Assembly (NCBI GenBank): GCA_012838795.1
Contig: DUOO01000062.1
Location: forward strand, 1-33,325
Reading direction: 5' to 3'
From: Clostridiaceae bacterium
GTDB taxonomy: Bacteria; Bacillota; Clostridia; Saccharofermentanales; DTU023
Length of the DNA stretch: 33,325 nucleotides
The notes under the pieces: model-generated
Told to the model about the DNA's origin: nothing
Databases searched by the model: none
Seen by the model: the letters and a program-made list of their open reading frames with translations, nothing else
Program-made: the position numbers and the translations under genes
Shown: positions 15,711-33,309 of the stretch, piece after piece
Numbering within the stretch: the stretch's first letter is position 1
Layout of the letters: each line of letters begins with the position of its first letter

Positions 15711-17387
15711 ATGAATAACTCTCAACATAATCCGAAATTCGGTAAACTTAAGAAAATGCTTAATCAAATGCCCGGCAGCATTTTGAAAAAAGCTTTTTTA
15801 TATGGTCTTCCGGTATTATCAGCGATTTTGGTGATAGCAGTTGTTGCCACGTCAATATTGATCAAACCGAATCAAGCCGATGCCAATTTAGAAAACAATC
15901 AAAGAGAATATTCTCAGGTAAAAATTGAACCGTTGGAAAGGGTTGAAATTTCTGAGTTTGTGGAAAAAGATTTAGTTCAGGTAAAAAGGGATAGCAATCC
16001 TTTGACATTACAGGAACTGGTTGAAGGTGGAACCGGTGTTGAACTAAAAGAGGAAGATACGATCAGCATCGTTGAAATTCATGCCAGTGCAAAAGCTACT
16101 GAAGTTGAAACAATTGAATCTGAAGTTGCTGAAACGACAAAACCTGAGTTTACGAAACCGCAACAACAAGTTGTAAATGATGTAGCTGTCGAAAAAAGTG
16201 TTGATTCGGATACTGAACAAAATTCTGAAGCTTCTGAACAAATTGAGGAAGCAGAAGTTTCTGATAAAGCAGAGGTTTCTGATATAGAAGAACCGGAAGT
16301 GCCTGAATATGAAGAAACTTGGGTTAATAAATATGTCAATACTTCAGTATTGCTAAATATCAGAGAAACACCTTCATTTGATGCAGCGGTAATCGGAACG
16401 TTAGAGCGCGGCGATATGGTTACCGAAATTTCAACAAATTACGAATGGTCAGAAATTTTGCTGAGCGAAGGAAAAGTCGGCTATGTATATAATCAATTTT
16501 TAACGCTCGATTATGTTGCTCCTGCCGCAGAACCTGTTCCTGAAGTTACAGTTAATCAATCAGATTTTGAAGCTTTATCCGGTACCATGTACATAGGTGT
16601 CGGGGCAGCTAATTTAAGATCTGAAGCAAATACAAGCTCAGATATCAACTGTACTCTCTATTACGGTGCACCTGTTTACTTACAAGGCTATGCCGATGGC
16701 TGGTATTCAGTTTCTGATGATAGCGGCTCAAGCGGATATGTAAGAGAAGATCTTTTACGCAGTGACCCTGTACCTCAAGAAGAAATTGATGCCTTAAGAG
16801 CTTCTGCAGAAATCCCTGCAGAGACCACAACACAAACTGAAGCACCTGCTGCGACTGAAGCGCCTGTTGCGACTGAGGAACCGGCACCGGCTGAAGAACC
16901 GGCACCGACTGAAGAACCGGCACCGACTGAAGAACCGGTACCGACTGAAACACCGGTTCCAACTGAAGCACCCGCTCCGTCTGAGCCTGTTGCACCCGGC
17001 GGAAGTGGTGGTGTTGCTGCGGCACAAATTGCGGCAAGCAAGGTAGGTTTACCTTATGTTTATGGTACAGCAGGGCCGTACTCATTTGACTGCTCAGGTT
17101 TGGTTCAGTTTGCAGTATACCAAGCCGGCGGCTCAATCAGCAGATCGGCGGCCAGCCAGGCAAGTGCCGGTATTGCTGTTCCGTTCTCTTACGGAGATTA
17201 CTCGGCATTGGCTCCGGGTGATGTATTGTGTTTTGCCTTCAACGGTGGTGGTGTGAGCCATTCAGGCATGTATATAGGCGGAGGACAATTTGTTCATGCA
17301 ATGAATCCTAATGATGGTATTCAAATTAATTCGTTGAGCGGTTATTGGGCAAGTTCTCTAGCTTATGTAAGACGTGTTTTCTATTAA
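15711..17387 (+). CDS. Membrane-anchored SH3-domain NlpC/P60 peptidoglycan hydrolase
   Basis: A 558-residue cell-wall endopeptidase. A single N-terminal membrane segment (about 25-50, LYGLPVLSAILVIAVVATSI) is followed by a Glu-rich stalk. Two bacterial SH3 domains follow (about 208-268, LLNIRETPSFDAAVIGTLERG; and about 290-350, ANLRSEANTSSDINCTL). A Pro/Thr/Glu repeat linker (about 372-427) leads to the NlpC/P60 domain (about 435-558). The catalytic triad is visible: C461 (DCSGLVQF), H517 (SHSGMYIG) and H529 (QFVHAMN). Such enzymes cleave stem peptides during wall growth or separation. GGAGG lies 5 bases before the ATG. It is divergent from the PBP gene, another wall enzyme. Confidence 0.95.
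   Translation: MNNSQHNPKFGKLKKMLNQMPGSILKKAFLYGLPVLSAILVIAVVATSILIKPNQADANLENNQREYSQVKIEPLERVEISEFVEKDLVQVKRDSNPLTLQELVEGGTGVELKEEDTISIVEIHASAKATEVETIESEVAETTKPEFTKPQQQVVNDVAVEKSVDSDTEQNSEASEQIEEAEVSDKAEVSDIEEPEVPEYEETWVNKYVNTSVLLNIRETPSFDAAVIGTLERGDMVTEISTNYEWSEILLSEGKVGYVYNQFLTLDYVAPAAEPVPEVTVNQSDFEALSGTMYIGVGAANLRSEANTSSDINCTLYYGAPVYLQGYADGWYSVSDDSGSSGYVREDLLRSDPVPQEEIDALRASAEIPAETTTQTEAPAATEAPVATEEPAPAEEPAPTEEPAPTEEPVPTETPVPTEAPAPSEPVAPGGSGGVAAAQIAASKVGLPYVYGTAGPYSFDCSGLVQFAVYQAGGSISRSAASQASAGIAVPFSYGDYSALAPGDVLCFAFNGGGVSHSGMYIGGGQFVHAMNPNDGIQINSLSGYWASSLAYVRRVFY
16838..16990 (+). repeat. In-frame 18-base repeats encoding a TEEPAP linker
   Basis: Variants of ACTGAAGAACCGGCACCG recur here within the NlpC/P60 gene, encoding Thr-Glu-Glu-Pro-Ala-Pro. 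The two central copies are nearly identical and the flanking ones diverge. Copy number could vary by slippage without loss of frame. Confidence 0.8.
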
Positions 17388-21934: not shown

Positions 21935-21992
21935 ATTTTAAGATTATTACAGATAGATTGTAACATAGAAAATATAATAAGGGGTGCTTGCT

Positions 21993-23939
21993 ATGGCCAA
22001 AAGAAAAAAGAAAAACATTGAAGATGTATCCTTACAGAACAAAAAAGTAATTGTCAGAGTGGACTTTAATGTTCCTCTGGATAAACAAACAGGTGAAATA
22101 ACAGATGATAAAAGAATCAGAGCTGCTTTGCCGACCATTCAATATTTAGTTGATAATAAAGCAAAAGTAATTTTAATGTCACATTTAGGCAGACCGAAAG
22201 GATTTGATCCGAATCTGTCAATGAAACCGGCTGTTGATCGTTTGAGTGAATATTTAAAACAAGAAGTGGTTTTAGCAGCCGATGTTATCGGTGAAGATGC
22301 CAAAGCCAAAGCTGAAAATTTACAGGCAGGCGAAGTAATGATGTTGGAAAATTTACGTTACCAAGCTGAAGAAACCAAAAACGATCCTGCCTTCGCAAGA
22401 GAACTTGCCGGTCTGGCTGACATATATGTAAATGATGCTTTCGGAACCGCACATCGGGCACATGCCTCAACTGCGGGTGTAGCTAATTATCTGCCTGCTT
22501 ATGCAGGCTATTTGATCCAAAAAGAGATCGATGTAATGGGCAAAGCAATTACTGATCCGAAACAACCGTTTGTAGCAATTTTAGGTGGTGCCAAAGTATC
22601 GGACAAAATCGGTGTTATTCGCAATCTGTTGCCGCAAGTTGAAACTCTGATTATCGGAGGCGGAATGGCATTTACTTTCTTAAAAGCCAAGGGTCTTGAG
22701 ATAGGAACTTCCTTGTGCGAAGAAGATAAACTTGATTTGGCAAAATCATTATTGGAAGAAGCTGAAGCACAAAATGTCAATCTGTTATTGCCGGTTGATA
22801 CAGTTGCAGCAGCAAATTTTGCGGCTGATGCAGCATTTGAGATTGTTGATGTAGAGGCAATGCCGAGTGATATGATGGGCCTTGATATCGGACCTAAAAC
22901 GATTGAAAAATTCTCAGCAGCTGTCAAAACAGCAGGTACTGTTGTATGGAACGGTCCGATGGGTGTTTTTGAATTTGAAGAATTTGCCAAAGGTACGAGA
23001 GCCATTGCTGAAGCTTTAGCAAATTCCGATGCGATTAGCATTGTAGGCGGCGGTGATTCTGCCGCGGCAGTTGAATTAATGGGATTTGCAGATCAGGTGA
23101 CACATATTTCAACCGGTGGCGGAGCATCTTTGGAATTACTTGAAGGTAAGGTTTTACCGGGACTGGACTGCCTTTTAGATGGTGGTGAGGGACGTCAAAC
23201 TTTTGCTGCCGGTAACTGGAAAATGAATGCCGGTGTTCCTGCCGATGCAGAAAAATTATTAAGTGAATTATTACCTTTAGTTAAAGATGCTGATTCAACG
23301 ATTGCGATCGGTGTTCCTTTCACTGCGCTTACTAAAGCTTTAGAAGTTACGGCATATAGCAATATTAAGATTGCTGCTCAGAATTGTCATTTTGAAGATA
23401 ACGGTGCTTATACCGGTGAAGTTTCAGCGAAAATGCTGGCTTATATGGGGGTGCCCTATGTAATTATCGGTCACTCGGAACGTCGTGAATATTTTGCTGA
23501 GACAGATGAAACGGTCAATTTAAAAGCTAAAGCGGCTCTTCACTGGGGGGTTCGACCAATTATTTGCTGCGGTGAAAGTTTGGAACAACGTGAAGCAGGC
23601 GAAACTTTTGCTTGGATCAGAGAGCAGATCACCAATGGTTTGAAGGATATTCCTGCCGAAAAAATGGGGTTTATCACCATTGCTTATGAACCGATTTGGG
23701 CAATCGGTACGGGAAAAACCGCCTCTGATGAACAAGCTCAGGAAGTCTGTGCTTACATCAGGGAATTGGTTGCCGAATTATATGATCCGGAGATTGCCGC
23801 AGAATTAAGAATTCAATACGGCGGATCGGTCAATGCAGGAAATGCAGCAGGCTTATTTGCTCAACCGGATATTGACGGGGGTTTAGTCGGCGGTGCTTCA
23901 TTAAAACCTCAGGATTTCAGTGTTATTTGCTTAGCATAA
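21993..23939 (+). CDS. pgk/tpi: Phosphoglycerate kinase-triosephosphate isomerase fusion
   Basis: A single 648-residue chain with two glycolytic enzymes. Residues about 1-397 are a full phosphoglycerate kinase ([55 protein letters not shown]), which makes ATP and 3-phosphoglycerate from 1,3-bisphosphoglycerate. Residues about 403-648 are a full triosephosphate isomerase: NWKMN (catalytic K410), GHSERREYF with the electrophilic His, [13 protein letters not shown] with the base Glu, and YGGSVN. The linker is very short (about GGEGR) and no in-frame ATG lies near the junction for a separate isomerase. The start at 21993 follows AAGGGG by 8 bases; a GTG at 21984 would overlap that site. PGK-TIM fusions are known from Thermotoga. 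Confidence 0.96.
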
Positions 23940-25772: not shown

Positions 25773-28700
25773 ATGACAAAAGACAAACAATTTATGACGA
25801 TGGACGGTAACATGGCTGCTGCATATACATCATATGCATTTTCTGAGGTTGCCGGGATTTTTCCGATTACTCCGTCGTCACCCATGGCTGACTATGTTGA
25901 TAAATGGGCTCAAGAGGGACGTAAAAACATTTTCGGACAGACAGTGGACGTTATAGAAATGCAATCCGAAGCAGGAGCTGCGGGTTTCGTACATGGTTCA
26001 TTGGCAACAGGTGCATTGACAACCACTTATACAGCATCTCAAGGTCTGTTGTTGATGATACCAAATATGTATAAAATAGCCGGCGAGCTATTACCTTGTG
26101 TATTTCATGTTTCTGCCAGAGCACTTGCAGGACAAGCTCTTTCGATATTCGGTGATCAATCCGACGTAATGGCATGTCGTCAAACCGGATTTGCGATGCT
26201 GGCATCATCCAGTGTTCAGGAAGCACATGAAGTAGCGGCAATTGCTCATCTAGCTACAATTAAAGGGCGTGTACCTTTCCTGCATTTCTTCGACGGTTTC
26301 AGAACATCACATGAAATTCAAAAAATAGAAGTTCTAAATTATGATGATTTAGCTGAATTAGTTGATAAAGATGCACTGGAAGCTTTCCGCAATCGCAGTC
26401 TGAGCCCGAATGATCCTGTAATTCGCGGTACGGCTCAAAATCCGGACATAAACTTCCAAGCTCGTGAAGCTTCCAACATATATTACCAAAACTTATTACC
26501 GATAGTAGAAGAATATATGAAAGAAATCAGCGAATTAACCGGTCGCGAGTATAAACCGTTCAAGTATTACGGTGCGGAAGATGCTGAAGAAATCATCATT
26601 TGTATGGGTTCCGTATTTGAAACTGTTTGTGAAACAGTGGATTATCTCAATGCTCGCGGTCGCAAAGTCGGGGTAATACATGTTTACTTATATCGTCCGT
26701 TCTCAATAGATCGTCTGCTTGAAGCAGTTCCGAAATCAGTTAAAAAAATCGGTGTTTTGGATCGGACCAAAGAGCCGGGTGCTGAAGGCGAACCTTTGTA
26801 TCTTGATGTTGTTGCAGCATATAAAGGCGCAGAAAATGCACCGATTATTGTCGGCGGTCGTTACGGTTTAGGTTCTAAAGATACAACACCGGATCAAATT
26901 GCTGCAGTATTTACGAATTTAAGTAATGCTTCACCGCTGCACGGTTTCACAATAGGTATTAACGATGATGTAACGCATTTTTCCTTGCCGCTCGGTGACA
27001 GTATTGATGTTGCCAAAGAAGGAACATTTGCTGCACGTTTCTGGGGTTTGGGTTCAGACGGTACCGTAGGTGCTAATAAAAACTCAATTAAAATCATCGG
27101 CGATCATACAGATATGTATGCTCAAGCATACTTCAGCTATGATTCGAAAAAGTCAGGCGGCATTACGATCTCCGACCTGCGTTTCGGCAGTGAGCCGATC
27201 CGTGCACCATATTTGGTTGATAAGGCTGATTTCATTGCCTGTCATAATCAAGCTTATGTTAACACTTATGATATGCTTACACCGCTGAAACCGGGAGGAT
27301 CTTTCCTCTTGAATACACAATGGGATCAAGCTGCTTTGGAAGAACATCTGCCGGGTAAAATGAAACGTTTCATTGCCGAAAACGATATTAATTTCTACAC
27401 AATCAATGCGATTGATTTAGGTGTTGAAATCGGTTTGGGCACCAGAGTCAATACAATCTGCCAGGCTGCATTCTTCAAAATTACTGAAGTTATTCCGGTA
27501 GAAGATTCTGTTAAATACATGAAAGAAATGATCGTTAAATCCTACGGCTCAAAAGGTGAAGAAGTCGTTAACATGAACTATGCTGCCGTTGATGCAGGTA
27601 TCGAGCATGTTAAGAAAGTAGATGTTCCGGCAGAATGGGTTAATGCTCCGGATGAAGTCTTACCGGTTCGTGAAGCCCCGGATTTCGTGAAGAACATTGC
27701 TGATGTAATGAATCGTCAAGAAGGAGATTCACTGCCTGTTTCAGCATTTATGGATTATGTTGACGGGCATATTCCGCTGGGTACTACCAAGTATGAAAAA
27801 CGTGGCATTGCAGTTAATATTCCAAACTGGATCCCGGAAAAATGTATTCAATGTAATCAATGCTCATTTGTATGTCCGCATGCTGTCATTCGTCCCGTTT
27901 TGTTGAATGATGAAGAAGCATCAGCAGCACCGGAAGGATTCATTACAATCGGCGGTTCTAAACCGTATGATGAATTCCAATACAAAATCCAAGTTTCAGT
28001 TTTAGACTGTACAGGCTGCGGAGTCTGTGCTGTTCAATGTCCTGCTAAAGCTCTGGAAATGGAACCGATTGGTGATCATATGAACGAGATTGAGAATTGG
28101 GAATATGCAGAAACCGTATCGCATAAAGCAAATCCGATGAAGAAAACGACAGTTAAAGGTTCACAGTTTGAAAAACCGTTATTTGAGTTCTCCGGAGCTT
28201 GTGCAGGTTGTGGCGAAACACCTTATATTAAACTTTTAACTCAATTGTTCGGTGATAGAATGCAAATCTCCAATGCAACAGGTTGCAGTTCAATTTGGGG
28301 TGCTTCTTCACCTTCGGCACCATATACCAAGAATAAAGACGGATTCGGACCGGCATGGGCTAATTCATTGTTTGAAGATGCGGCAGAACATGGATTGGGC
28401 ATGCACATGGGTGCAAAACAAATCCGTAAGCGTGCTACGAAAAAAGTTGAAGATCTGATGGCTCTTAATGCTTGTGAAAACATAAATGCTGCTGCACAAG
28501 CCTGGCTGGACAGTTATGAAGACGGAGAGGCTACACGTAAGACAACTGCAGATTTGATAGCTGCTTTAGAAAGTTATACCGGAGATAATGCTGAGGCAAA
28601 AGCTTTAGTCGCCGGAATTCTTGAATTAAAAGATTACTTGATGAAACGTTCATCCTGGATTATCGGTGGTGACGGCTGGGCATACGATATCGGTTTTGGC

Positions 28701-29321
28701 GGCTTGGATCATGTTTTGGCATCAGGCGAAGATATCAATATCTTTGTTCTCGATACCGAAGTATATTCCAATACCGGCGGTCAAGCTTCGAAATCAACTC
28801 CGTTAGGCGCAATTGCCGAATTTGCTGCCGGCGGTAAACCGATTAAGAAGAAAGATCTCGGCATGATCGCGACAACATATGGTTATGTTTATGTCGGCCA
28901 AATTGCCATGGGAGCAAATCAAACTCATGCTTTAAGAACGATTGCCGAAGCTGAAGCATATAACGGTCCTTCAATTATCATCGCATATGCTCCGTGCATC
29001 TCACACGGTATCAGAGGCGGTTTAACCTTGTCACAAACCAGAATGAAAGATGCGGTCGAAACCGGCTACTGGCATCTTTGGAACTATGATCCGAGAAAAG
29101 CTGAAAAAGGTGAAAATCCGTTTACGCTTACATCTAAGCCGCCTAAACGTGATTATCATGAGTTTATTACCAGAGAAGTACGTTATACTGCTCTGAACAG
29201 GAAATACGAGAAAGAACAAGTTGAAGAAATTTTCGAAAAAGCAGCCAAGGCTGCCGAGGAACGCTATCAAGTATATATACGGATGGCAGAAGCGGAATTC
29301 AGCAAAGCAGATGCCGAATAA
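25773..29321 (+). CDS. nifJ: Pyruvate:ferredoxin (flavodoxin) oxidoreductase, single-chain
   Basis: A 1182-residue homodimeric iron-sulfur enzyme oxidising pyruvate to acetyl-CoA and CO2 and reducing ferredoxin or flavodoxin, a mark of anaerobic metabolism. Domain order is standard. The N-terminal pyrimidine-binding domain starts GNMAAAYTSYAFSEVAGIFP. The CoA and gamma domains follow. A two-cluster ferredoxin domain has CIQCNQCSFVCP (from C691) and CTGCGVCAVQCP (from C746). The C-terminal diphosphate domain has the proximal-cluster motif CAGCGE (C810) and GGDGWAYDIGFGG (from 965) with NTGGQASKSTP. AAAGGAGAG precedes the ATG. It follows lower-glycolysis genes, so the region forms a glycolysis-to-acetyl-CoA block. 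Confidence 0.98.
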   Translation: MTKDKQFMTMDGNMAAAYTSYAFSEVAGIFPITPSSPMADYVDKWAQEGRKNIFGQTVDVIEMQSEAGAAGFVHGSLATGALTTTYTASQGLLLMIPNMYKIAGELLPCVFHVSARALAGQALSIFGDQSDVMACRQTGFAMLASSSVQEAHEVAAIAHLATIKGRVPFLHFFDGFRTSHEIQKIEVLNYDDLAELVDKDALEAFRNRSLSPNDPVIRGTAQNPDINFQAREASNIYYQNLLPIVEEYMKEISELTGREYKPFKYYGAEDAEEIIICMGSVFETVCETVDYLNARGRKVGVIHVYLYRPFSIDRLLEAVPKSVKKIGVLDRTKEPGAEGEPLYLDVVAAYKGAENAPIIVGGRYGLGSKDTTPDQIAAVFTNLSNASPLHGFTIGINDDVTHFSLPLGDSIDVAKEGTFAARFWGLGSDGTVGANKNSIKIIGDHTDMYAQAYFSYDSKKSGGITISDLRFGSEPIRAPYLVDKADFIACHNQAYVNTYDMLTPLKPGGSFLLNTQWDQAALEEHLPGKMKRFIAENDINFYTINAIDLGVEIGLGTRVNTICQAAFFKITEVIPVEDSVKYMKEMIVKSYGSKGEEVVNMNYAAVDAGIEHVKKVDVPAEWVNAPDEVLPVREAPDFVKNIADVMNRQEGDSLPVSAFMDYVDGHIPLGTTKYEKRGIAVNIPNWIPEKCIQCNQCSFVCPHAVIRPVLLNDEEASAAPEGFITIGGSKPYDEFQYKIQVSVLDCTGCGVCAVQCPAKALEMEPIGDHMNEIENWEYAETVSHKANPMKKTTVKGSQFEKPLFEFSGACAGCGETPYIKLLTQLFGDRMQISNATGCSSIWGASSPSAPYTKNKDGFGPAWANSLFEDAAEHGLGMHMGAKQIRKRATKKVEDLMALNACENINAAAQAWLDSYEDGEATRKTTADLIAALESYTGDNAEAKALVAGILELKDYLMKRSSWIIGGDGWAYDIGFGGLDHVLASGEDINIFVLDTEVYSNTGGQASKSTPLGAIAEFAAGGKPIKKKDLGMIATTYGYVYVGQIAMGANQTHALRTIAEAEAYNGPSIIIAYAPCISHGIRGGLTLSQTRMKDAVETGYWHLWNYDPRKAEKGENPFTLTSKPPKRDYHEFITREVRYTALNRKYEKEQVEEIFEKAAKAAEERYQVYIRMAEAEFSKADAE

Positions 29322-29561: not shown

Positions 29562-30572
29562 ATGCAGGTAAGTTTCAACAGTACATTGCATCTGTCAGAT
29601 ACCTTGGTGCCTGATTTATTCATCACAGAATATATTAATAAATTAAGCGGAAATGCAATACGCTGTTATTTGACCTTGCTTTTAACTTTTCAACATGGCA
29701 ATCGCAAGGCTTCCCCGGCAGACATTGCACAAAGGCTTGGTGTGAGTGTGAATAAAGCGGAACAGGCATTGACTGAATTACAACAAGTTCAGCTGATCGT
29801 TATTCAGAGCGGTATAATAGAATTGGTCGATCTGAAAGCTAAAGAAATTAAACGCAGTTTGCTGCGCAGTCCGCCTGATGAGAATGTTTCGGAAACGGAT
29901 CTTTCACGGAGAGAAGCTATTGTACAGCAAATTAATGATACATTCTTTCAAGGAGTGATGTCTCTGGGATTTTATACTGTGATCGATGAATGGTTCAGTC
30001 AATATCAATTTGAACCTGAAGTTGTTTACGCCATTTTTGCTGAGGCAAGCTCCAAACAAATGTTGAAAAATCCGGGTTATGTATCAGGGATTGCCCAAAA
30101 TTGGGGTAAGTCCGGTGTCAAAACTTATAGTCAGCTAAATCAATATTATAAAAAATTTGAAGAAAGACAGATTTTGATCCAAAAAATTCGAAAAAAATTG
30201 AAGATCAAAGGTTTTTTAACAGAATATCAGGAAGAGTTTGTTGACAGGTGGACCAAAGAATACGGTTATAATTTTGAAATCATTGATTTGGCGATGGCCC
30301 AAACCGTCAATGTCGGATCACCAAGCTTTAAGTATATAGATACCATTCTCACTGCTTGGCATAAAAAAGGATTAAAGACAGCAGAAGCTATTGAAGCGGA
30401 TCAAAAGGCACATCGTGAACAATCAATCAGTGCAAGGAAAGTTACAAGTTCGCCAAAAACAAGACGCAGACTTAAGACAAGAGAACAGGCTGAGCAAGAT
30501 ATTCCGGAAGAAGAATTATATCGCTTAGACCTGATTCAACGTTATTCTGAAGCCGGAGAAGATAAAGAATGA
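29562..30572 (+). CDS. DnaD-domain primosomal/replication initiation protein
   Basis: A 336-residue DnaD/DnaB-like protein acting in helicase loading at replication origins or restart sites of Bacillota. The N-terminal part (about 1-85) looks like a winged helix (SPADIAQRLGVSVNKAEQAL). Two DnaD-type helical domains follow (about 120-195 and 200-275). The second carries the family signature in FKYIDTILTAWHKKGLKT, the YxxxIxxxW pattern. A basic C-terminus follows (KVTSSPKTRRRLKTRE). Its stop overlaps the start of the DnaC/DnaI-like gene by four bases (ATGA), supporting joint function in helicase loading. The ribosome binding site is AAAGGGAAG. Confidence 0.9.
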   Translation: MQVSFNSTLHLSDTLVPDLFITEYINKLSGNAIRCYLTLLLTFQHGNRKASPADIAQRLGVSVNKAEQALTELQQVQLIVIQSGIIELVDLKAKEIKRSLLRSPPDENVSETDLSRREAIVQQINDTFFQGVMSLGFYTVIDEWFSQYQFEPEVVYAIFAEASSKQMLKNPGYVSGIAQNWGKSGVKTYSQLNQYYKKFEERQILIQKIRKKLKIKGFLTEYQEEFVDRWTKEYGYNFEIIDLAMAQTVNVGSPSFKYIDTILTAWHKKGLKTAEAIEADQKAHREQSISARKVTSSPKTRRRLKTREQAEQDIPEEELYRLDLIQRYSEAGEDKE

Positions 30573-31600
30573 TGCGGAATATTGATCAACAAACTAAAAA
30601 ACGTTTGAATCGTTATTATGAATTATTAAGACAAAAAGCAGAACGTATCCGCGATCAGAAGGTGAATTCAATTCATCAAGCTTACCCTGAAATAAAGGAA
30701 TTGGAAAACAAGAGAATTCAGGCGGGAATAGCTCAAGTCAGAAATAAAATCAGCGGATTTGTCGGGCAAAACACTTTGGATTTGGCTGAGGTTGACCAAG
30801 AGTTAAAATCTGTTTTAATTGCGAAAAATATTCCATTGGATTATTCAGAGCCTGACTATAATTGCGATATTTGTCGAGATAGCGGTTGGATTGCTGACGG
30901 GTATTGCTCCTGTGTCGATCGAGTATTAATTGAAATAAATCAACAGACTAATTTGTATTTGCCGGCTTCTGATCAAACATTTGCAAATTTTGATTTAAAT
31001 CTTTTTTCTAACCGGAAAAATCCGGTATTTTTTCAAGGACAACTTTCACCCAGAGAAGCTATGCGCGGTTTGCGGACTATCGCCAAAAGATATGCAGAGA
31101 ACTTTCGTGATAATCCGGAAAATTTATATATGTTCGGTACAACCGGCACCGGCAAGACTTTTCTAATGTCTTGTATTGCCAATGAATTGAGTAACCTGGG
31201 TGTTAATCTGGTTTTTATTAAAGCTGTTAAACTATTTGAATTAATGGCTCAACGCAGAACATTGCTCAACAGTTACAGTCCTGATCCGGAAGAGCAGGAT
31301 TTCATTAACAGGACCTTTGAATTAATCAATAATACTGAATTACTTTGTATTGATGATATCGGCCTCGAGGCAAAGGGATTGCTTAATACCTATTCTGATT
31401 TGATTGTTCTGCTGGATGATCGTTATAATGCCAAATTGCCGGTAATTATGACCGGCAATTTAAAACCGTCGGAACTTGGCGAAGACTATGATGAAAGAAT
31501 TCAGAGCAGAATTACCGGAAATTTTCAACTGTTAATGTTTGAAGGCCCTGATGTTAGAACTCAGACTGCCAAAGGGAGAATAGAACAAGATGCGGATTAG
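30569..31600 (+). CDS. DnaC/DnaI-like AAA+ ATPase (helicase loader)
   Basis: A 343-residue ATPase of the DnaC/IstB/DnaI group. An N-terminal coiled region (about 10-85) leads to a four-cysteine, zinc-type knuckle, C99-x2-C102 and C113-x-C115. The AAA+ domain has Walker A FGTTGTGKTF (190-197), Walker B LLCIDDIGLE, sensor 1 VIMTGNL and an arginine motif in DERIQSRITG. It probably loads the replicative helicase onto DNA together with the DnaD protein encoded just upstream. An IstB transposition helper is less likely because no istA is nearby and the cysteine knuckle fits helicase loaders. Two ATGs stand in tandem at 30569 and 30572. Confidence 0.92.
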   Translation: MMRNIDQQTKKRLNRYYELLRQKAERIRDQKVNSIHQAYPEIKELENKRIQAGIAQVRNKISGFVGQNTLDLAEVDQELKSVLIAKNIPLDYSEPDYNCDICRDSGWIADGYCSCVDRVLIEINQQTNLYLPASDQTFANFDLNLFSNRKNPVFFQGQLSPREAMRGLRTIAKRYAENFRDNPENLYMFGTTGTGKTFLMSCIANELSNLGVNLVFIKAVKLFELMAQRRTLLNSYSPDPEEQDFINRTFELINNTELLCIDDIGLEAKGLLNTYSDLIVLLDDRYNAKLPVIMTGNLKPSELGEDYDERIQSRITGNFQLLMFEGPDVRTQTAKGRIEQDAD

Positions 31601-31985
31601 AACAGGCATAGATATCCTGGATTTGCGAAGATTCAACAAGTCTCTTGAACGCAGGGGAGAAAAATTTCTTTTAACTTTTTTAGTGGAAGAAGAAATTAAA
31701 AATGCGCAGAATAAACCGGAGAGTTTAGCAGGTTTTTTCGCTGCTAAAGAAGCCGTTGCCAAAGCCATCGGCAGTGGTATCTGGCAGGCAGATGTAAAGT
31801 GGCATGATATTTTTATCTCGAATGATGAATTAGGTAAGCCGCAGGTTGATTTGAGCGGTGAAGCTTTGAAAAGATATGATAAAATGAGCGGGACAGATAT
31901 AGATATCAGTATCAGTCATGAAAAAAATTATGTTGTTGCAGTTTGTGTTATATTGACTGATTCGAAAAAAAATAATTATGAGTAA
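31590..31985 (+). CDS. acpS: Holo-[acyl-carrier-protein] synthase
   Basis: A 131-residue phosphopantetheinyl transferase that transfers 4'-phosphopantetheine from CoA to acyl carrier protein, activating it for fatty acid synthesis. Mg-binding residues are D8 in RTGIDILDLRRF and E54 in GFFAAKEAVAKAIG; the later GKPQVDLSG and DIDISISHEKNYVVAV are typical. Length is normal for AcpS. The gene overlaps the upstream ATPase gene by 11 bases and the downstream gene by 8, so all are in one operon. Confidence 0.95.
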   Translation: MRIRTGIDILDLRRFNKSLERRGEKFLLTFLVEEEIKNAQNKPESLAGFFAAKEAVAKAIGSGIWQADVKWHDIFISNDELGKPQVDLSGEALKRYDKMSGTDIDISISHEKNYVVAVCVILTDSKKNNYE

Positions 31986-33099
31986 AAAAGTAAAGAAAAC
32001 TGATAAAAAGAAAAATAAAAATATTGCAGCAGAGTTAGCAGATCGCAAGCTGGAAATTGTTAAGCAGGAGATCTATATTGATAAAATCAAACCTCGACGT
32101 TTTCCTCGTTGGTTAATTCCAATGGTTTTAGTGGCAGCATTGTCTTTAGCATTAATTTTATTTGTACCGAAACTATTTACCAAATATCAGATGGAAAAAA
32201 CAGAGAGAAACAATTCCGAACAAGTTGAAATTGATCCTTTTCTTCAAGGAGCTAATGCAGTATTAAGTCAAAGAAGTGTAGCAGTTCGGGAAGAACCGAA
32301 TCGTCAAAGTCTTCGTATTACTTCCGGTATTTATAATGAACCTGTTAAAATTTTAGACCCGAAAACCAATAACGGATATTATCTGATTGAGTTGACTGAT
32401 GGAGTACAGGGTTATGTTTTGGCAGATGAATTGACCCTTAACCTGAATTCGTATAAAGCTGAATCAGCAAAATATAAAGTATTGTTGATTAATCGCGAAA
32501 AAGCAATCGTTTCCGATACAATCGGCGGCAATGTAATTGCATTGGCTCCCATGGGCTGTGTACTATATGCGGATTATGTGACGGAACAAGTAGTGCGTGT
32601 GATTCTTCCAAGTGGGGATATCGGATGGATGAGCAGAGAAAATTTAGTAGTGCTTGATCTGAATGAAGCAATTCCCGAACCGGAAAAAAAGCAAGCGGAT
32701 ATCTTTTGTTCCAGTGCATTGATTTTTATTAATGTAGCATATGTACCCGGCGGAATGGATATGAGCGGGATTGATTTACCTTCGATAATATACCTTGCCG
32801 GGAAAACGAACGGTTTGAATATTCCGAGAATAATGGAAAAACAAGCTAACTGCGGTACTCAGATTTCTTTTGAAAGAGATAAATATGGTATGCCGAATAT
32901 AGATGCTTTGAAAGCAGGGGATATTCTATTCTTTTCATTAGATAAAAATCCTGCGAAATTGACTTCGTCTGCGATATATTTAGCAGACGGAAATATTCTA
33001 TATGCTTCAGGAAATCAAGGTTCAATTCAAATAATCAGCCTGCCGGCAAACGAAAAACTTGCTGAATCTTTAGTTGTTATAAGGCGATTGTTTGATTGA
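31978..33099 (+). CDS. Membrane-anchored SH3 protein with an inactive-looking NlpC/P60 domain
   Basis: A 373-residue protein with a basic cytoplasmic N-terminus (1-45) and one membrane helix (about 46-65, LIPMVLVAALSLALILFVP). Two SH3-like segments follow (about 95-155, VAVREEPNRQSLRITSGIY; and about 165-225). The C-terminal domain (about 240-373) is NlpC/P60-like. Aligned by eye with the active enzyme at 15711, DCSGL becomes D266-LPSI and HSGMYIGGGQFVHA becomes SSAIYLADGNILYA. The catalytic Cys and both His are thus replaced by L267, S330 and Y342, while scaffold such as ALKAGDILFFS is kept. It probably binds wall material or regulates a hydrolase; this is inference. It is the last gene of the dnaD-acpS operon. 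Confidence 0.85.
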   Translation: MSKKVKKTDKKKNKNIAAELADRKLEIVKQEIYIDKIKPRRFPRWLIPMVLVAALSLALILFVPKLFTKYQMEKTERNNSEQVEIDPFLQGANAVLSQRSVAVREEPNRQSLRITSGIYNEPVKILDPKTNNGYYLIELTDGVQGYVLADELTLNLNSYKAESAKYKVLLINREKAIVSDTIGGNVIALAPMGCVLYADYVTEQVVRVILPSGDIGWMSRENLVVLDLNEAIPEPEKKQADIFCSSALIFINVAYVPGGMDMSGIDLPSIIYLAGKTNGLNIPRIMEKQANCGTQISFERDKYGMPNIDALKAGDILFFSLDKNPAKLTSSAIYLADGNILYASGNQGSIQIISLPANEKLAESLVVIRRLFD

Positions 33100-33232: not shown

Positions 33233-33309
33233 GGCGGCGTAGCTCAGCTGGCCAGAGCATTCGGTTCATACCCGGACGGTCGTAAGTTCAAATCTTACCG
33301 CCGCTACCA
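33233..33309 (+). tRNA. tRNA-Met (CAT), elongator type
   Basis: The full cloverleaf can be drawn: acceptor GGCGGCG/CGCCGCT, D stem GCTC/GAGC, anticodon stem TTCGG/CCGGA with anticodon CAT at 33267-33269, T stem GTAAG/CTTAC with loop TTCAAAT, and an encoded CCA end. The paired first acceptor position and close match to known elongator sequences argue against the initiator. Ile-CAT (lysidine type) is less likely. Confidence 0.95.

Follow-up and report, generated by a model that had tools for sequence, protein, structure and literature searches.

What role remains for an NlpC/P60 domain once its catalytic residues are gone, and why is it anchored in the membrane and encoded directly behind acpS and a helicase-loader gene? 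This question is raised by a gene of a Clostridiaceae bacterium (assembly GCA_012838795.1), located in the 33,325-nucleotide stretch of contig DUOO01000062.1 that was analyzed as a whole and is referred to here as the window. An earlier, sequence-only reading had given the gene, which encodes 373 residues, its correct coordinates and reading frame, and had described the product as a membrane-anchored, catalytically dead NlpC/P60 relative. The latter description is supported, the catalytic loss being common to all orthologues tested in the order and the domain being under purifying selection. The features of the locus are collected in Table 1.

Table 1. Features of the pseudoenzyme locus and of the intact NlpC/P60 gene in the same window
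Feature	Coordinates	Strand	Basis or detail
Complete NlpC/P60 enzyme (comparator, possible partner)	15711..17387	+	C461/H517/H529 intact
DnaD-domain replication protein	29562..30572	+	PF07261 E 9e-26; TIGR01446 E 2e-20
DnaC/DnaI-type AAA helicase-loader-like ATPase	30569..31600	+	NF005304 E 1e-68, above cut-off; DnaI model E 9e-14
acpS, holo-ACP synthase	31590..31985	+	TIGR00516 E 4e-26, above cut-off
Membrane-anchored NlpC/P60 pseudoenzyme, 373 aa, YkfC architecture	31978..33099	+	ATG 31978; stop 33097-33099
Predicted transmembrane segment, residues ~46-66	32113..32175	+	AF2 helix 46-78; Kyte-Doolittle peak
First SH3b domain, residues ~92-155	32251..32442	+	Pfam SH3_3 100-152, E 3.8e-7; AF2 strands
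Second SH3b-like domain, residues ~165-231	32470..32670	+	AF2 strands 166-227; full-length fit to 3h41; no Pfam match of its own
Degenerate NlpC/P60 domain, residues 235-373	32680..33096	+	Pfam NLPC_P60 (PF00877) 254-355, E 5.4e-6, 26.8 bits vs cut-off 23; structure matches; dN/dS
Leu267 codon (TTA), place of catalytic Cys	32776..32778	+	
Ser330, place of catalytic His	32965..32967	+	
Tyr342, place of third (orienting) residue His	33001..33003	+	

The protein starts with a Lys-rich stretch (residues 1-42) followed by a strongly hydrophobic helix (Kyte-Doolittle peak of 2.69 over the 19 residues from residue 45), and is therefore likely to be anchored in the membrane once, near its N terminus, which is predicted to lie inside. 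The two SH3b domains ahead of the NlpC/P60 domain agree with the YkfC subfamily. An AlphaFold2 model built with 48 orthologues (mean pLDDT 86.4, pTM 0.75) was compared with solved structures, and dipeptidyl-peptidase VI structures together with YkfC of Bacillus cereus (3h41) ranked first in the Foldseek search. Superposition on 3h41 with VIA-align covered 264 residues within the range 92-373 of the predicted model (Z 28.1, rmsd 2.6 A, 20% identity), this match being expressed as residue ranges. YkfC and the Bacteroides dipeptidyl-peptidases VI (3npf, 3pvq, 4r0k) share their three-domain fold with the whole ectodomain of the model (Z 26-28), and a sequence match to this group reaches E 6e-10. 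The NlpC/P60 domain of the model displays the papain-like fold found in the PDB comparison (7cfl: Z 17.8, rmsd 1.8, 120 residues). The complete SH3b-SH3b-NlpC/P60 fold of YkfC is predicted with high confidence to be retained across the whole ectodomain.

The window protein differs from YkfC in its transmembrane anchor and in its active site, where all three triad residues and most of the S1/S2 residues are replaced. In a MAFFT alignment, the triad places are occupied by Leu267, Ser330 and Tyr342, precisely as the sequence-only reading had it by reference to the triad of the enzyme at 15711-17387, which was also given correctly; phmmer alignments to solved NlpC/P60 structures agree, with the register off by at most one residue at the first His. 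The protein thus lacks the Cys-His dyad which, along with a polar third residue, marks an active peptidase. Another Cys, at 248 or 292, had been considered as a potential partner for a His elsewhere in the protein. There is no Cys248, the cysteines being located at positions 194, 244 and 292, and none of these is well conserved among orthologues. Furthermore, the entire 373-residue protein contains no His, which precludes any Cys-His arrangement or chemistry, and an alternative pair was accordingly rejected. The loss is shared throughout the window's order, a point on which the earlier reading had called for a check: a Cys-His dyad is present in none of the 62 orthologues that contain enough of the domain, and in 23 of these the domain is devoid of His. 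The Cys place is held by Leu, Met, Pro, Thr, Ile, Val and other residues.

The substrate-contacting residues, defined from the published YkfC contacts with gamma-D-Glu and L-Ala (PMC2954226), have changed as well. In own-order orthologues, the place of YkfC Trp228 is taken by Pro, Asp or Glu, that of Ser257 by Leu, Met or Ile, and the Ser at position 239 is mostly lost; Asp256 is kept in 6 of 24 orthologues (Ile285 in the window protein), and Asp237 is replaced by Ser in 15 of 24. The equivalents of Tyr226 (14/24) and Arg255 (20/24) are more often kept, and the structural Gly and the Gly-Asp motif are retained. With Trp228, Ser239, Ser257 and, in most cases, Asp256 exchanged for other residues, frequently Pro, Leu or Met, the pocket is unlikely to support canonical binding.

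Despite these changes, the protein is nearly ubiquitous in its order. A related protein was found in 56 of 59 relatives, and an orthologue in 177 of the 188 genomes of the order, including 102 of the 106 with a completeness of 90% or more and a contamination of 5% or less. No match was obtained in the remaining 11 of the 188 genomes; three of these, from family f4, are near-complete assemblies of one to three contigs that retain acpS and the DnaD/DnaC-type genes, indicating that the protein is not indispensable everywhere. Nei-Gojobori dN/dS estimates for the window and three congeners are 0.03-0.08 for the NlpC domain and 0.09-0.15 for the SH3b part, and the domain is as constrained as, or more constrained than, AcpS (0.09-0.13) and DnaC (0.10-0.12) within the same genus, all values being rough because synonymous differences are large. 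One orthologue copy (L067, G014:C52) is split over two frames, which reflects a frameshift or else an error in sequencing.

The DnaD-type protein, DnaC-type loader and AcpS named as neighbors in the sequence-only reading were all recovered by profile matches (Table 1). In the window, the four genes overlap by a few bases, with acpS extending 8 nt beyond the pseudoenzyme start. Among 56 loci of the order, acpS adjoins the pseudoenzyme gene in 53 and 48 contain a DnaC-type gene; several of the loci that deviate lie at contig ends. Scans for promoters and terminators around the gene yielded no clear excess over shuffled sequences. At many of the order's loci, a pyruvate:ferredoxin oxidoreductase-like gene (window 25773-29321) lies ahead of the DnaD gene, and further upstream in the window is a bifunctional phosphoglycerate kinase/triosephosphate isomerase gene (21984-23939; NF010569, above cut-off). 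The contig is bounded by a 5S rRNA (35-150) at its start and a tRNA-Met (CAT; 33233-33309) at its end.

The wider family was gathered by profile searches that covered the class, an outside order and the phylum, since searching named genome contigs had produced only near relatives and distant matches. The closest relatives in other Clostridia (L131-L145 and others) contain two SH3b domains in the same domain order, and several are encoded near acpS. Most of the outside-order proteins (L131-L145) have a lipobox-like L..GC or C in place of the transmembrane helix found in the window's order, indicating that the anchor has changed. The triads of these YkfC-like lipoproteins are a mixture of intact and broken. 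The Cys-His-His triad is complete in L131, L138, L158, L177, L184, L216 and L187; others have Ser-Asp-His (f25), Gly-Asp-Tyr and Ser-Glu-Tyr (parts of f49), Ala-Ser-Tyr (f58) and further combinations. In a maximum-likelihood tree of 69 proteins, built after removal of the triad columns, the own-order set forms a single clade with 100/100 support. If loss is treated as irreversible, five losses of the dyad are required on the best tree and five or six in 968 of 1000 bootstrap trees, with never fewer than three; when changes in both directions are allowed, four are needed, and strongly supported branches alone force two. Across the wider family, the dyad thus seems to have been lost independently some five or six times, the exact number being uncertain because the tree backbone is partly unresolved. 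The sampled loci outside the order also differ in their upstream genes: in L142 (2256-7068) and L216 (308-5603), the family gene is preceded by those for AcpS, a metallophosphoesterase and an SMC-like ATPase. In L133 (1911-6879), the metallophosphoesterase and SMC-like ATPase precede the family gene, and a SleB-like hydrolase and YpeB are encoded nearby after it.

What, then, does the protein do? The strong conservation of the dead domain across the order points to action by binding, and we consider it probable that the protein is a non-cutting, YkfC-derived membrane pseudoenzyme, most likely a scaffold or adaptor. Its ancestor would have been a YkfC-type endopeptidase acting on peptidoglycan peptides. 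The single N-terminal helix is predicted to place the three-domain ectodomain outside the membrane, towards the wall, where replacement of the triad and of most gamma-D-Glu/L-Ala substrate residues would prevent cutting; the protein may recruit or regulate wall enzymes or, with lower likelihood, hold wall peptides directly. The role suggested from sequence alone, that of a sensor, scaffold or regulator of wall hydrolases, is a plausible candidate. There are analogies for such a mode of action. In Escherichia coli, the degenerate LytM regulators, among them EnvC and ActS (for the latter see PMC8360153), are non-catalytic relatives of wall hydrolases which activate wall enzymes. These proteins have a different fold (M23), so that only the mode of action would be analogous.

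SH3b domains often bind the wall, and the protein could instead be a muropeptide sensor or wall tether, with peptidoglycan still bound by either the dead pocket or the SH3b domains. A precedent is the NlpC/P60 protein RipD (Rv1566c) of Mycobacterium tuberculosis, described as binding peptidoglycan but not cutting it (PMC6628586, PMC12067865): it too has lost the NlpC catalytic residues, and RipD structures are among the matches of our model (4jxb, Z 15.0). Its NlpC domain is N-terminal and followed by a C-terminal pentapeptide repeat, whereas that of the window protein is C-terminal and preceded by two SH3b domains. The frequent retention of the Tyr226 and Arg255 equivalents fits with tethering, but the replacement of the other YkfC contacts speaks against canonical use of the pocket, and we regard this alternative as rather unlikely. 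A function linking wall growth to chromosome replication or lipid synthesis, for which the overlapping genes, the frequent adjacency of acpS and the frequent presence of a DnaC-type gene would speak, is improbable: the operon suggested by the sequence-only reading is real as synteny within the order, but other genes directly precede the family gene outside it, where sampled, which makes the link weak evidence for a shared function, and the three f4 genomes have acpS and the replication genes without the pseudoenzyme. The connection to replication may be mere neighborhood.

Residual catalysis with a different set of residues is more improbable still. A general caution (PMC10211241) is that catalytic residues may have migrated in some pseudoenzymes, and Asp or Glu recurs at the catalytic His place in several branches; however, the absence of His, the poor conservation of all three cysteines and the many unrelated residues found at the lost positions among orthologues argue against it. 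Least of all do we believe in a decaying pseudogene or assembly artefact, for which nothing but the missing catalytic residues could be adduced: the frame is open in nearly all matched relatives, synteny extends across the order, and dN/dS is far below 1, with the NlpC domain under tighter constraint than the SH3b part within the genus. Such purifying selection on a dead domain is not that of a decaying gene, and decay was rejected on these grounds and on conservation. Returning to the scaffold or adaptor, a more far-reaching version, in which YkfC-type endopeptidases repeatedly became non-catalytic wall regulators in Clostridia and, within the window's order, gave rise to an almost universal membrane adaptor that has a particular wall enzyme as its partner, is tentative and on balance doubtful. 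No description of the family was found in the openly licensed papers searched, and non-catalytic NlpC/P60 proteins are little described in general, RipD being the sole named example found. A dead version kept across an order, with Clostridia relatives ranging from intact to broken, offers a natural series for studying the fold without catalysis.

A candidate partner is the complete enzyme encoded at 15711-17387. The source genome (96% complete) contains three NLPC_P60 matches: besides this enzyme and the pseudoenzyme, there is a partial match. In many genomes of the family, 12-22 kb separate the pseudoenzyme from an orthologue of this enzyme, a spacing that may reflect general synteny, and co-occurrence is weak: at a threshold of E 1e-12, the three pseudoenzyme-free relatives are without the enzyme, as are four genomes with the pseudoenzyme. 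Synteny with a wall enzyme, or with genes for replication, does not prove an interaction. The partial match (L237, G000:C5:16014) lies in a 226-residue open frame and covers only profile positions 46-104, hence is without the catalytic Cys part. Downstream of it, we noted by eye sequences resembling an M23 peptidase as well as a serine resolvase, which may be what is left of a mobile element.
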